Shown here: positions 46,329-51,276 of the stretch, piece after piece | Numbering within the stretch: the stretch's first letter is position 1 | Layout of the letters: every line of letters starts with the position of its first letter | NCBI GenBank assembly: GCA_947177485.1 | Contig: CAMWUR010000008.1 | Location: 1-51,276 of the forward strand | From: an uncultured Helicobacter sp. | GTDB lineage: Bacteria > Campylobacterota > Campylobacteria > Campylobacterales > Helicobacteraceae | DNA length: 51,276 nucleotides | Direction: 5' to 3' | Notes under the pieces: generated by a model | Databases searched by the model: none | What the model was told of the DNA's origin: nothing | Seen by the model: the letters and a program-made list of their open reading frames with translations, nothing else | Translations under genes and position numbers: made by a program

Positions 46329-47494
46329 TTAATCCTCGCTCAAAAACTTCTCGCGCAATATCAATAGCCCAATACTGCCAATCATCAAACACACTGCCGC
46401 AAGAACAGCGAATCTCGAACCCTCGAGCGAGATAAACAGCCCGCAAAGCGATGTGCCGAGCGTGATTCCAATGTTTGCCGCACTCAAAAAGAGCCCGTTG
46501 GCGAGTTCTTTGGCTTGGGGAATGGGCGAAGCAACGACAAACTGCCCCATATTGTTGCCCACGCCCGCAACGATTCCAAGAACAACGAGAATCGCGCTCG
46601 CCCCAAGCGCGTTGCCCCCGCCGAAAAACAGCGCGACATATAGCGCGATGAGCGCTATCGGCACAATGCGGAGCGTGGCTTTGGGCGCACTCACAAGCAC
46701 CTTGCCCGCAATCGCATTGCCGACAACACCTGTCAGACCATAGACCAAGAGCAAAGCGCTAATCAGGTTGAACGACACCTGCGTGAAGTTGAGTAAAAAT
46801 TCGCTCATGTAGCTATAAAAACCAAACATCGCGCCATTGAATGTCATAACGACAAAGACTGACGCCCACACCACAGGCTTGGCAAGCAGCTTGAATTGCT
46901 CCTTTTGCGAGGGCTTCTCTTTCGTGTTTTGGCTGGGCACAAAAACGATTGTGAGCAGCAGCGCTAGCGCATTGAGCACGGCAAAAAACACAAACGACAT
47001 CTCAAGGCTCGTGTTGCTCGCGATAAAGCTTGTGAGCGGCACGCCGAGCGTCATTCCCGCCGAGACGGCGATAAAAATTTTCGCAATCGCCTTCGGCGCT
47101 TCGTTGTGCGGCACGGAATCGGCGGCGATGCTAAAGGCAAAGGCGCAATAGACGGGGTGAAAAAACGCGGGGATTGCGCGCGCGATGAGCAAGAAAATAA
47201 AATTTTCACAAATCGCTGCCCAAAAAGAGGTTGCGCTAAAGACAAACAGGCACAGCAACATCACCTTTTTGCGTCATACCTTGTCATAAGCGGGGGCAGA
47301 ATGGGCGCGGTGATGGCGACAATGAGCGCGAAAATGCTCACAGCCCAGCCCGCATCGGCAACGCTTATGTCATATTTTTCGGCAACAATGGGCAAAACGC
47401 CCATTATCCCAAGCTCCATGCTAAGGAGCGCAAAGACACCAAAGGTGAGCGTGAGAAAGAAAAAGCCCATGCCTTTGTTTTCTGAATGAACCAT
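46329..47494 (-). pseudogene. MFS exporter split by a frameshift
   Basis: A drug:proton antiporter-type major facilitator of about 388 residues if joined. The 5' part (from ATG 47494, with AAGGAG upstream) gives MVHSENKGMGFFFLTLTFG to PLMTRYDAKR, then stops at TGA. The 3' part, in the next frame, continues KVMLLCLFVFSATSF to the end at 46329. The break lies at a run of five A on the coding strand (T at 47266-47270): one more A would restore GCA AAA AAG GTG ATG and the usual motif-A helix boundary. Everything else is intact, so this may be a sequencing error, a recent loss, or an on/off switch. Substrate unknown; the nearest look is to AraJ/YdhP-type sugar or drug exporters. Confidence 0.8.
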
Positions 47495-47537
47495 AGAAGT
47501 CTCCTTTGAAATAGAATCAAAGCGACATTGTAAAGCC

Positions 47538-47556
47538 TGACAGATAGTGTTTGTCA
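47538..47556 (-). promoter_or_regulatory. Promoter/operator candidate of the MFS gene
   Basis: TGACA (47538-47542) and TGTCA (47552-47556) form an inverted repeat. On the minus strand the same bases read TTGACA (-35-like) followed, after 17-19 bases, by TTTACA/TACAAT. A repressor of the MarR or TetR type could bind here, which is inference. Confidence 0.35.
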
Positions 47557-47652
47557 AGAGTGTTTGGCGTAGTTTTTGAGAAATTTATGGCGCATGTCCT
47601 GTCGGGGGCGGGGTGGATTTAGAATGTTTTTCTAAAGCCACGTGTTGCGCAA

Positions 47653-48399
47653 TTAAAATTGCACATTCAAGGTATCGGCAAGAAATTCATACGAATCTCC
47701 ATTGTCATTTATGGTGATTGGTTGCGATTCTGCTTGCGGCTTTTTACAATTCTCGCTTTCTTCGCAGATTGCCTCCAATGCGTCAAAATCGCGATTGCAA
47801 AACGCATATTCTAGGCTTTTGTAGATTTCTTGGTAACTCTGCTCGTCTAATTCTTTGCTATATTGCTCAATCTTGTCGGCATAGACAACTTCTTTTTTGA
47901 TTCTGCGCAATTCGTCTATATCTACCCCAGCGTTTGCGATTCTTTCATCTGTGAATCGTTGCAATGTTGCGCCAAGCGAGAAGGATTTGATATGCTGAAT
48001 CAGCGAATCGGCAGTACGCAATCGTTTTGCATTGTCTGCAATTGTTTGCAATTCTTCAAAATCGCGAGCGCTGTATGCGTTCAAGAGTCTTTGCATTATC
48101 GCCTCATAATGATGTAAATCGGATAAAACATAAACATCTAATTCAATATCATGGGCGCAAGATTCTTCTTTGTAAATGGCTTGTAATTCTTCCAAATTAT
48201 CCCCCGCGTCTCGTAATCTTTTCAATGTTACGTTGCGTAGAGATTCGTGCATAAACAAATCTGCAAGCTCGCAGATGATTTGCCTCTTTTTCTCAAGCCG
48301 CCTTTCTATTTTGCGCCGCTTCTTTGCCTTTTTCTTTTGTTTCTCTCTTTGCTTTTTCTTGCCTTCTTTGTATGCCATTGCTGCAATGTCCCACCACAT
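47653..48399 (-). CDS. Coiled-coil/helical-repeat protein, two repeats
   Basis: A 248-residue protein of unknown function, paralogous to the genes at 48699 and 49147. It begins MWWDIAAMAY, then an extremely basic charged helix (residues 10-40, KKQREKQKKKAKKRRKIERR), then two copies of an approximately 75-90 residue helical repeat (53-142 and 143-219), and ends ITINDNGDSYEFL. The repeat consensus has L-x3-T-[DE]-x-R-[IL]-x-x-A, a central EEL-x-x-I, and a closing AY-x-x-RD[FI]. AAGGAG precedes the start at 48399. There is no signal peptide. Not recognised as any named family; a scaffold, nucleic-acid-binding or surface role would all be guesses. Confidence 0.75.
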   Translation of the reverse strand: MWWDIAAMAYKEGKKKQREKQKKKAKKRRKIERRLEKKRQIICELADLFMHESLRNVTLKRLRDAGDNLEELQAIYKEESCAHDIELDVYVLSDLHHYEAIMQRLLNAYSARDFEELQTIADNAKRLRTADSLIQHIKSFSLGATLQRFTDERIANAGVDIDELRRIKKEVVYADKIEQYSKELDEQSYQEIYKSLEYAFCNRDFDALEAICEESENCKKPQAESQPITINDNGDSYEFLADTLNVQF

Positions 48400-48482
48400 T
48401 TTGGATTCTCCTTATTTTTTGGAATCGATGAACACTTTTTCCGAATACACACTTTATGGAAAAATTAAGAAGAAATTATGGT

Positions 48483-48492
48483 GGGGGGGGGG
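48483..48492. repeat. Ten-G tract in a gene-free region
   Basis: The only long internal homopolymer of G in this window. It lies about 84-93 bases upstream of the 248-residue gene (read on the minus strand as poly-C) in the gap 48400-48698, which has no other convincing gene. A poly-C of this length in Helicobacter usually varies in length between cells, so it may change promoter spacing or a small ORF. Confidence 0.6.
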
Positions 48493-48621
48493 CAGAATTG
48501 CGTCTCGTGCATTGTTATCCTTTCATTGTTTTGCGAATCTCACGGCGCAGCTATAACACACCAAAGCTGAAATAACGATAAAATTTCGGGCGCTTGCCGC
48601 CCATGCGCCTTGCATGAGCAT

Positions 48622-48641
48622 GGTGCGACTGAAGTCGCACC
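48622..48641. repeat. Perfect inverted repeat GGTGCGACT/AGTCGCACC
   Basis: Nine-base arms separated by GA, in the same gap as the ten-G tract and about 57 bases past the end of the 76-residue gene. No T tract follows on the minus strand, so it is more like a short dispersed palindrome than a classical terminator. Confidence 0.5.
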
Positions 48642-48698
48642 TCCGATTGAGCATGCATAGACAAATGCAATTCTTGCCCATACTCCCCAATTTTGCCT

Positions 48699-48929
48699 TT
48701 ACTCCTTAAGCTTTCTCTGTTCCTCCTTCCAAGCTTGCATTTCTAGCTCAACACGTCTTTGTATCTCCTCCTCAATTTGCCTTTGCAACTTCTCTGCTCT
48801 CTTTCGCTCTTTCTTTGCGAGCTTCTTTTGCTTTTTTTCACTATCTCCAGAAATCCAATCAAGAATCTGTTGAATAGAGTCTAGTGGTGGAAGTGGTCCT
48901 ATTGGTGGATAAAATGGTGGCATTGCCAT
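48699..48929 (-). CDS. Short charged coiled-coil protein, paralogue without repeats
   Basis: A 76-residue product: MAMPPFYPPIGPLPP, then LDSIQQILDWISGD, then a charged helix (SEKKQKKLAKKERKRAEKLQ to EQRKLKE). The helix matches the N-terminal charged helix of the larger neighbours (KKERRRAEAERQRQ and similar), but the repeat domain is absent. It could be a natural small partner or a truncated copy. GGGAG precedes the ATG at 48929. Gap to the next gene downstream is 299 bases. Confidence 0.6.
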   Translation of the reverse strand: MAMPPFYPPIGPLPPLDSIQQILDWISGDSEKKQKKLAKKERKRAEKLQRQIEEEIQRRVELEMQAWKEEQRKLKE

Positions 48930-48970
48930 GTGGTCTCCCTTTAAGTGTTATTTGCACAATTTGTGTTGCT

Positions 48971-49001
48971 GCAATGTTTGCAAAAGAGTTGCAAACATTG
49001 C
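48971..49001. repeat. Inverted repeat, copy 1 (GCAATGTTTGCAA)
   Basis: GCAATGTTTGCAA (48971-48983) and TTGCAAACATTGC (48989-49001) pair perfectly around AAGAG. The same arms recur at 50270-50301. No T tract on either side, so terminator function is doubtful; a protein-binding or mRNA element is as likely. Confidence 0.7.
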
Positions 49002-49146
49002 AATTGTCAATGCCCATTCAAATCAATCTTAATGTGCCCATACTATATATAATCGTAAGCTTGCAACTTTCGATTCTGCTCTAATGTTATGTTAAGGCAG
49101 AATAGCATGAATATCACAATGCCATTGTTTGAATGCACATGTAAAT

Positions 49147-50220
49147 CTAGTCGCCAAACACAACAGACGCTCCATCGTCTTGTGGAGAGATTGGTTTTTC
49201 ATAAAATGATTGAAGCCGTTTTGCTTCTGTTCGGAGCGCCCACAATGTGCCAAAATCGCGATTTCGATACGCATTCTCTAATTCTATGTAGGTGTGGCCA
49301 TGCCTGACTAAGTACTGGTAACATTGTTCAAACGTGCGAGCACATAATGCCTCCCTCTCAATTTTTCGCAGCTCTTCCATATCAATCCCGGCTTTTACTA
49401 CTCTCTTATCTGTAAGTTGCCGCAAAGTTGTACTAAGCGGGTAACTTTTGATTGATTGAACCAATTTTTGAAATTGTTCCGATTCTTCCGCGAACACTTG
49501 CAGTTCCTTAATATCGCGATTTCGATACGCATCCTCTAGTTTTTGATAGAGGTAACCTTGATAGGCTAATTTTTGATAGCATTGCTCAATGGTGTAGATA
49601 TAGGATACTTCCTCCGCAATTCTTTGCAGCTCTTCTATGGTATCAGCATTCGCGATTCTCTCATTTATAAGTGGACGCAAAAGCGAGCAAGATTTGATGT
49701 GTTTCAAGTCTTGGATTTGCTCCGATTCTTCCATAAGTGCTTGCAATTCCTCAATGTCGCGAGCACTATATGCGTCAAAGAGTCTTTGCTTGATTTCCTC
49801 ACAATAAGGGGACGTAGGCAAAACATTGGCGTTTGACTCGATATTTCGGGCACATCTTGCTTCCTCTTCGATTGCGCACAGCTCTTCCCAATCATATTCA
49901 GCATTTTCCAGTCTTTCGAGCGTTAACTCTCGTAAAGATTCGCTAGCGAAGAATTCTATGAGTGCAGAGATTTCTTGCCTCTTTCTCTCCATTTCTCCTT
50001 GCCTTTGCTTCTCCAGTTCAATCTGTCTTTGCATCTCTCGCTCAATCTGCCTCTGTTTCTCCTCTTCGGCTTGTCTTTGCAATGCAATCTGCCTTTGTCT
50101 TTCGGCTTCAGCCCTCCTTCGTTCTTTTTTCTTGCGTTTTTTCCGATTTCTTTCGCGCGCTTTGTCAAATTCATCGAGTAGTTTCCAACCAAGTGGTATG
50201 AATGGTAGTACCCACCACAT
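49147..50220 (-). CDS. Coiled-coil/helical-repeat protein, three repeats
   Basis: A 357-residue protein of unknown function. It begins MWWVLPFIPLGWKLLDEF (like the 248-residue paralogue), has a long charged coiled coil (about residues 18-85, rich in Arg, Gln, Glu), and three tandem repeats: 95-180, 181-262 and 263-338. Each repeat has [E/T]-x-[R]-[I/L]-x-x-A, then EEL-x-x-I-x-x-E, and then Y-x-x-L-x-x-AY-x-x-RD. The tail ISPQDDGASVVFGD resembles the 248-residue protein's ITINDNGDSYEF. GGAGAG precedes the ATG at 50220. It is preceded by the McrB-like gene in the same direction, 110 bases away. Repeat type could be TPR-like or HEAT-like by helix pattern, but I do not recognise it. Confidence 0.75.
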   Translation of the reverse strand: MWWVLPFIPLGWKLLDEFDKARERNRKKRKKKERRRAEAERQRQIALQRQAEEEKQRQIEREMQRQIELEKQRQGEMERKRQEISALIEFFASESLRELTLERLENAEYDWEELCAIEEEARCARNIESNANVLPTSPYCEEIKQRLFDAYSARDIEELQALMEESEQIQDLKHIKSCSLLRPLINERIANADTIEELQRIAEEVSYIYTIEQCYQKLAYQGYLYQKLEDAYRNRDIKELQVFAEESEQFQKLVQSIKSYPLSTTLRQLTDKRVVKAGIDMEELRKIEREALCARTFEQCYQYLVRHGHTYIELENAYRNRDFGTLWALRTEAKRLQSFYEKPISPQDDGASVVFGD

Positions 50221-50269: not shown

Positions 50270-50301
50270 GCAATGTTTGCAAAAAAAAATGCAAACATTG
50301 C
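50270..50301. repeat. Inverted repeat, copy 2 (GCAATGTTTGCA)
   Basis: GCAATGTTTGCA (50270-50281) and TGCAAACATTGC (50290-50301) pair perfectly around eight A. The same arms lie at 48971-49001. Both copies stand upstream of a coiled-coil paralogue in transcription direction. Confidence 0.7.
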
Positions 50302-50330: not shown

Positions 50331-50942
50331 TTATTTGGTATATTCATATCGAGGCCAAAGAGGACGAGAGATTTGGTTCATCATCTCCTCAAGGGTATAC
50401 TTTTTTCCACCTAACAACCTCTCATAAATCTGTGAGGTCGAGAGCTTGTTGCCAAAGCCTTCATCGCTTGCAATCGCTTGCAGGACTTTCCCATTAAAAA
50501 TGCAGACGATTTTGATGTCATCAGCATTTTGATAGTGAAAGGCAATTTTCCATTTATACACATGCCCCAAGTCTACATCATCAATTTTGTTCAATGCGTT
50601 TGATTGGCTGTATTCGATGATTTTAAGAATCTTGGACTTGACATTATGGAAGGCCTCTTTGGAATCTTGTCCATATTTTGGTGACCATGCATATTTATCA
50701 TCATAGCATGGCTTGCTGGGTTTGTTGTTGTATTGGTAGATTCCAAATTTATAAGACCCTATTCCCCATATACTGCCCAAGCAATCAAGTTTAGCTTCGA
50801 GCCAATACGTGAAGTCATCTCTGTTTGCACCACCTCCAATTCCTGTGTAGTCTTCTAGGCTCATATTCCTCACTCTATCCACATTCCAAAGTTCTTGAAA
50901 CTCTAGGAATTTTTCTCTGTCACTGCTGCTGAAATTTGTCAT
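50331..50942 (-). CDS. Stand-alone McrB-type N-terminal domain protein
   Basis: A 203-residue protein whose middle (about residues 26-170) looks like the N-terminal sensor domain of McrB-like restriction ATPases: LEDYTGIGG, DDFTYWLEAKLDCLGSIWG, YKFGIYQYN, KYAWSPKYGQDSKEAF, VKSKILKIIEYSQ, and VDLGHVYKWKIAFHYQ. In the full-length proteins this module is followed by an AAA+ domain; here the frame stops after LLGGKKYTLEEMMNQI with no ATPase. AAGGAG lies eight bases before the ATG at 50942; an earlier in-frame Met at 50975 is less likely. The comparison is from memory and needs a profile search. If right, it may recognise modified DNA or act as a partner for a separate ATPase, or it may be a remnant. 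Confidence 0.6.
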   Translation of the reverse strand: MTNFSSSDREKFLEFQELWNVDRVRNMSLEDYTGIGGGANRDDFTYWLEAKLDCLGSIWGIGSYKFGIYQYNNKPSKPCYDDKYAWSPKYGQDSKEAFHNVKSKILKIIEYSQSNALNKIDDVDLGHVYKWKIAFHYQNADDIKIVCIFNGKVLQAIASDEGFGNKLSTSQIYERLLGGKKYTLEEMMNQISRPLWPRYEYTK

Positions 50943-51276
50943 GGTTTTGTCTCCTTGCCATAGGCTTAAGTTCAAGTCAAGATGTCATACATCGCTTTTC
51001 TGTGAACACACATAATCAACTAAATATTCAGAATCCAAGCAGAATCTGAATCGATTGAATATGTGAATCGTGCGGAATCCGAATTACGTTAACTTACGAA
51101 ACGTCAAAAAAGAAGAAATAGGGGGTGGTCTAGCGGGCGCTAGTGTGTTCGGTGTGCGGGGGCTGCGGGGGGGGGGGCGGCAATGGGTTGGTCAGCATGC
51201 CGGTGGTGTTTGGTTTTTTTTTAGCCGGCAAGATCACCGCGCAATTTGAGGGGGGCGGGTTATCCAAATGACCGCC
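50943..51276. other. Gene-free contig end, low-quality or chimeric tail
   Basis: No gene recognised. To about 51115 it resembles normal AT-rich intergenic sequence and may carry the promoter of the McrB-like gene. From 51119 the sequence turns abruptly G-rich, with an eleven-G run (51167-51177), a nine-T run, and long GGG runs. That composition does not match the rest of the window and resembles read-end error. Confidence 0.55.

Follow-up and report, generated by a model that had tools for sequence, protein, structure and literature searches.

Near one end of a contig from an uncultured Helicobacter sp. (assembly GCA_947177485.1, contig CAMWUR010000008.1; all 51,276 nucleotides were analysed and are referred to here as the window) lie three adjacent genes, two of which encode repeat-containing proteins. 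Do these genes belong to a family of their own, how widely does that family occur, and what might its members do?

Genes A, C and B and their repeat modules

According to the list of open reading frames (ORFs) of the window, the three genes are co-directional on the minus strand, following one another head to tail in the order A (49147–50220; 357 aa), C (48699–48929; 76 aa) and B (47653–48399; 248 aa). Protein A consists of a short hydrophobic N-terminus, a charged helix and three repeats, C of a proline-rich N-terminus and a charged helix with no repeats, and B of a charged helix and two repeats, an arrangement of two, none and three copies that an earlier note on this DNA had described and that is borne out here. 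A purine-rich, ribosome-binding-like stretch is found 5′ of each gene. A and B are 42% identical over ~210 residues (E 5e-37), with dN below dS (ratio 0.15). The match of C to A (E 4e-5) is confined to the charged helix, which is compositionally biased, so that the kinship of C rests mainly on this helix together with a hairpin shared upstream.

A profile was made from six sequences, the five window repeats together with the repeat of a relative in a second genome (G003, see below), and its matches place repeats 1, 2 and 3 of A at 49699–49953, 49462–49698 and 49201–49452, and repeats 1 and 2 of B at 48010–48258 and 47734–47991, all on the minus strand; when the window's genome was searched with this profile, these five copies, all within A and B, were the ones found. 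Each of the 15 pairs formed by the five window repeats and the G003 copy outscores all 500 residue shuffles (z 10.9–28.0), at 32–55% identity. Codon differences between repeat pairs mostly peak at third positions, and dN is lower than dS wherever dS can be computed, which is the pattern expected of real genes. The repeat had been proposed to span 75–90 residues and to close with AY-x-x-RD; the copies are real and measure 82–89 residues, but the motif is not terminal, as it sits ~60 residues into the repeat, where its invariant residues A57, R61 and D62 lie ~20 residues short of the end. By eye the copies fall into two types, type 1 (ESLR...AYSARD) comprising A1 and B1, and type 2 (IKS..L...ERIANA...AYRNRD) comprising A2, A3, B2 and the G003 repeat. 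A thus has an additional type-2 copy, consistent with A having gained or lost a module of this type. The two types, this extra copy and the single repeat of the G003 counterpart agree with the duplication and repeat gain or loss that had been suggested. We are highly confident that A, B and one outside relative constitute a lineage-restricted family whose members differ in their count of sequence-related modules (three, two and one, with none in C).

AlphaFold models of A and B, made from alignments of three sequences only, contain a long helix followed by groups of four helices: in B, a helix at residues 2–46 and two such groups (mean pLDDT 85.3, pTM 0.66); in A, a helix at residues 10–88 and three such groups, two of them with an extra short helix (mean pLDDT 86.1, pTM 0.61). 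Each module is therefore predicted with good confidence to form four alpha helices, and the whole protein to be all-helical and rod-like, while the long helix in the models may be an artefact of predicting charged sequence. The earlier note had called this region a charged coiled coil common to all three proteins. A charged helix is indeed common to them: the stalks are 69–75% E, K, R or Q and only 19–24% hydrophobic. In A, however, the predicted continuous helix (residues 10–88; 49957–50193, minus strand), which is indicated by both periodicity and structure prediction, has a main self-period of eight residues (39% identity at lag 8 vs 15% at lag 7), a period that the DNA shows as 24-nt tandem repeats. 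Judged from its sequence, the A stalk is no less likely to form a single charged alpha helix than a heptad coiled coil. In C the hydrophobic period peaks at 3.6–3.7, so that C may dimerise. The predicted stalk resembles single alpha-helix (SAH) domains (PMC5812594, PMC5347031) in consisting largely of E, K, R and Q, hydrophobic residues being few, but here it is joined to undescribed four-helix modules. A C-terminal tail, which had been thought common to all three proteins, amounts to ~14 residues of loose similarity between A and B, predicted to be disordered, and is absent from C and from the G003 relative.

None of the Pfam, NCBIfam and PHROGs families reaches its cut-off with the whole proteins, and when single repeats were compared with Pfam the best match had an E of 0.0031, each match arising in one member alone; no Sel1 model is among the Pfam matches to A, B or single repeats. 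A match of Tox-ODYAM1 to A (E 0.002, 17.6 bits vs a cut-off of 25) falls on the biased charged helix. With Foldseek, neither A nor B has a PDB match at E ≤ 0.001 and B has no match among viral structures; the best matches are to designed helical bundles and Protein A-type repeats, with low TM-scores and without significance. The best PDB profile match (E 0.005), to an oxysterol-binding protein, is not convincing. These searches support the view that the A/B repeat family is previously undescribed.

Distribution and comparison with a second genome

Profile searches covered overlapping family, order and phylum samples of 121, 399 and 397 genomes and a genus sample of five, two of them ~60% complete, and a pattern scan, which reaches close relatives only, covered 84,980 species genomes. 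The genome samples and the scan together yielded a single outside relative, a 155-aa protein with one repeat (L034:12945-13412). Its genome, G003, is a metagenome-assembled genome (Helicobacter sp. isolate Mgla_MAG_ref_184) of the same genus as the window genome. The repeat family has no match in the phages, plasmids or viral contigs searched. On the strength of these sequence searches the family is likely absent beyond the two known genomes, in keeping with its having been described as new-looking.

Weak profile matches in other genera look like chance. Reading of the sequences placed one of them (38 profile positions in a 557-codon frame, L012/L013) beside ispH-like and aroA-like genes, another (L033) across a TsaD-like protein, and a third (L020) across the end of a type III-like DNA methyltransferase ('ITEERIKRAG').

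In G003 the repeat gene is divergent from tpiA. In the window genome tpiA is on a different contig, C74, which ends in a G run and includes only the first few codons of the same leader ORF, and the window contig carries, near its own end, a poly-C tract and the remainder of the leader; from this sequence arrangement the two contigs probably join at the leader. Contigs ending in G or C runs occur at both C74 (~50 G at its end) and the window (52 C at positions 1–52), and such terminal runs are probably artefactual extension. In a further genome of the genus, G002, two adjacent large ORFs that by eye resemble dynamin-like GTPases lie upstream of tpiA (L090 112-4385), occupying the tpiA side where G003 has the repeat gene.

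Between the G003 gene and A, dN is 0.49 and dS 1.10 (ratio 0.45); for six tpiA-side genes of the same two genomes, dN is 0.025–0.072 and dS 0.62–1.08 (ratios 0.03–0.11). The G003 gene, which has one repeat, is the positional counterpart of A but may not be its true orthologue. The G003 locus contains neither C nor the PD-T4-1-like gene described below. Non-coding sequence is held more closely: a conserved leader (51011–51162, minus strand) that is also present upstream of the G003 gene is 91–94% identical (94% over 153 bases), and the spacer between A and C matches the DNA 3′ of the G003 gene at 87% identity over 200 bases. That the proteins change fast while these non-coding flanks are held at 87–94% suggests, as far as sequence conservation can tell, that the flanks have a function. 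The fast evolution of the proteins, with dN/dS below 1, may mean relaxed constraint rather than diversification.

Leader, hairpins and neighbouring genes

Within the genus, a perfect 12-base hairpin is present in three copies, confined to the repeat-gene loci; in the window it lies upstream of A (50270–50301) and upstream of C (48971–49001). Its RNA folding beats that of nearly all shuffles (z −2.6 to −4.3). A role for the hairpin as a recombinase site is disfavoured, the length of the spacer varying among copies. A terminator-like site follows C (48587–48603, minus strand; a pattern match only). Rfam returned a single chance match, to a snoRNA at E 0.34, and a promoter scan gave no excess over shuffles. 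Five GANTC sites fall within ~50 bases of the leader both in the window (51031–51079) and in G003 (L034 12839–12887), in each sequence the densest such cluster; some Helicobacter methylate DNA at GANTC.

Leaving aside the terminal stretch of 52 C, the window has just two G/C runs of at least eight bases, both of them poly-C tracts on the minus strand, one of 11 before the leader (51167–51177) and one of 10 upstream of B (48483–48492). Upstream of both the G003 gene and B, such a tract lies in a short ORF that ends after at most 27 codons whichever tract length was tried, and hence poly-C does not act as a switch of the main frame. The leader might instead exert control, by analogy with the H. 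pylori tlpB-hp0102 operon, where control through the G-repeat of the mRNA leader is known (RepG; PMC8295292): as at our locus, the homopolymer lies in the leader and outside the main reading frame, but there it is a G-repeat, whereas the sense strand here carries C.

Directly upstream of A lies an ORF (50331–50975, minus strand; 214 aa from the listed TTG, with an ATG at 50943) that matches positions 31–211 of the 383 in the PADLOC PD-T4-1 model (E 5.8e-23). By tblastn it corresponds to the N-terminus of an AAA ATPase (McrB-like), which is followed by McrC, in a Marinomonas plasmid. At ~200 aa and lacking the ATPase domain, it is not a full-length match to PD-T4-1, and no McrC is seen beside it. 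From its sequence it looks like a stand-alone McrB-type N-terminal domain and is probably a phage-defence gene. One of the five genomes of the genus has this gene, and because it is missing at the G003 locus, its link to the repeat genes is not conserved, being seen in a single genome. In the paper reporting the PD systems (PMC9519451), the main text treats PD-T4-10 and has no passage on PD-T4-1 itself, and we therefore do not use the mechanism of PD-T4-1 as evidence.

On the other side of the locus, an MFS transporter gene (46329–47557) is split over two overlapping frames by a frameshift or a sequencing error near 47261; an uninterrupted paralogue, 80% identical, is present on contig C36. 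A REP-like 20-base palindrome, GGTGCGACTGAAGTCGCACC, lies at 48622–48641 and also occurs genome-wide. Scored matches to a query that includes it number 50 for the window genome, 41 for G003 and 28 for G001, several of them near contig ends, and there is no match in G002 or G004.

Possible roles of the repeat proteins

The earlier note had suggested surface, effector or defence scaffold proteins. The anatomy of the proteins, their rate of change and one neighbouring gene lead us to favour, tentatively and as a possibility short of an even chance, a locus of defence or host adaptation whose products are variable helical binding adaptors or scaffolds. The proteins would be cytoplasmic adaptors or scaffolds whose charged helix serves as a spacer, whose short hydrophobic N-terminus may touch the membrane, and whose modules would provide a binding surface that varies quickly in number and sequence. 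The changeable locus, flanked by poly-C tracts, would serve either host adaptation or conflict with phages and other mobile DNA, and the PD-T4-1/McrB-N-like protein might be a partner. That neighbour, absent in G003, is all that speaks for a defence context, and a role in defence specifically is rather doubtful. A fuller version, in which the leader and hairpin spacers control modular helical adaptors that are paired with an orphan McrB-type recognition domain and sense or block phages or foreign DNA, making this a new, rapidly diversifying conflict locus, is very unlikely.

Several other explanations would account for parts of these observations. The genes might be lineage-specific and under weak constraint, duplicated, partly decaying and of no important role, with C a truncated remnant. 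The ratio of 0.45 between the G003 gene and A, the lack of repeats in C, the split MFS gene next door, the position at an assembly break and the very narrow distribution are all consistent with this, but the three ORFs are intact and have ribosome-binding-like sites, dN is below dS (0.15 for B vs A), and the flanks are kept at 87–94%; we regard this as somewhat unlikely. Proteins that are exported or displayed at the surface, interacting with the host and varying so as to evade recognition, would explain the repeat variation, fast change and homopolymer tracts, which resemble those of surface contingency loci, and have a weak, non-significant fold likeness to Protein A-type three-helix repeats in their favour. 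However, inspection of the N-termini of A, B and C reveals no classical signal peptide, as the hydrophobic stretch precedes the positive charges, which disfavours surface display, and no secretion gene is seen beside the three genes, making such a role unlikely.

A mobile element or prophage remnant carrying these genes as cargo is more unlikely still: although gene content varies between the two genomes at conserved flanks and a REP-like palindrome and hairpins lie nearby, there are no matches in phages, plasmids or viral contigs and no integrase or transposase among the ORFs read (43.5–51.3 kb). By analogy with the coiled-coil-rich proteins of H. pylori (Ccrp; PMC2776988, PMC4379086), a group that likewise has long charged helices in a Helicobacter (the genus name that the record of the outside relative also carries), the proteins could be cytoskeletal or cell-shape filaments. 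The repeat modules and narrow distribution set our proteins apart from Ccrp by its general description; the A stalk has a period of eight rather than seven, the proteins evolve fast, and only two genomes have the family, unlike a shape gene, so that we consider this very unlikely.

If the proteins do little, they are one more lineage-specific orphan family. If the adaptor or scaffold reading is true, the locus would offer a small natural example of how a helical-repeat protein gains and loses modules, in which the conserved flanks make change easy to follow between strains, and a lead on the diversification of genes of uncharacterised role in these Helicobacter.
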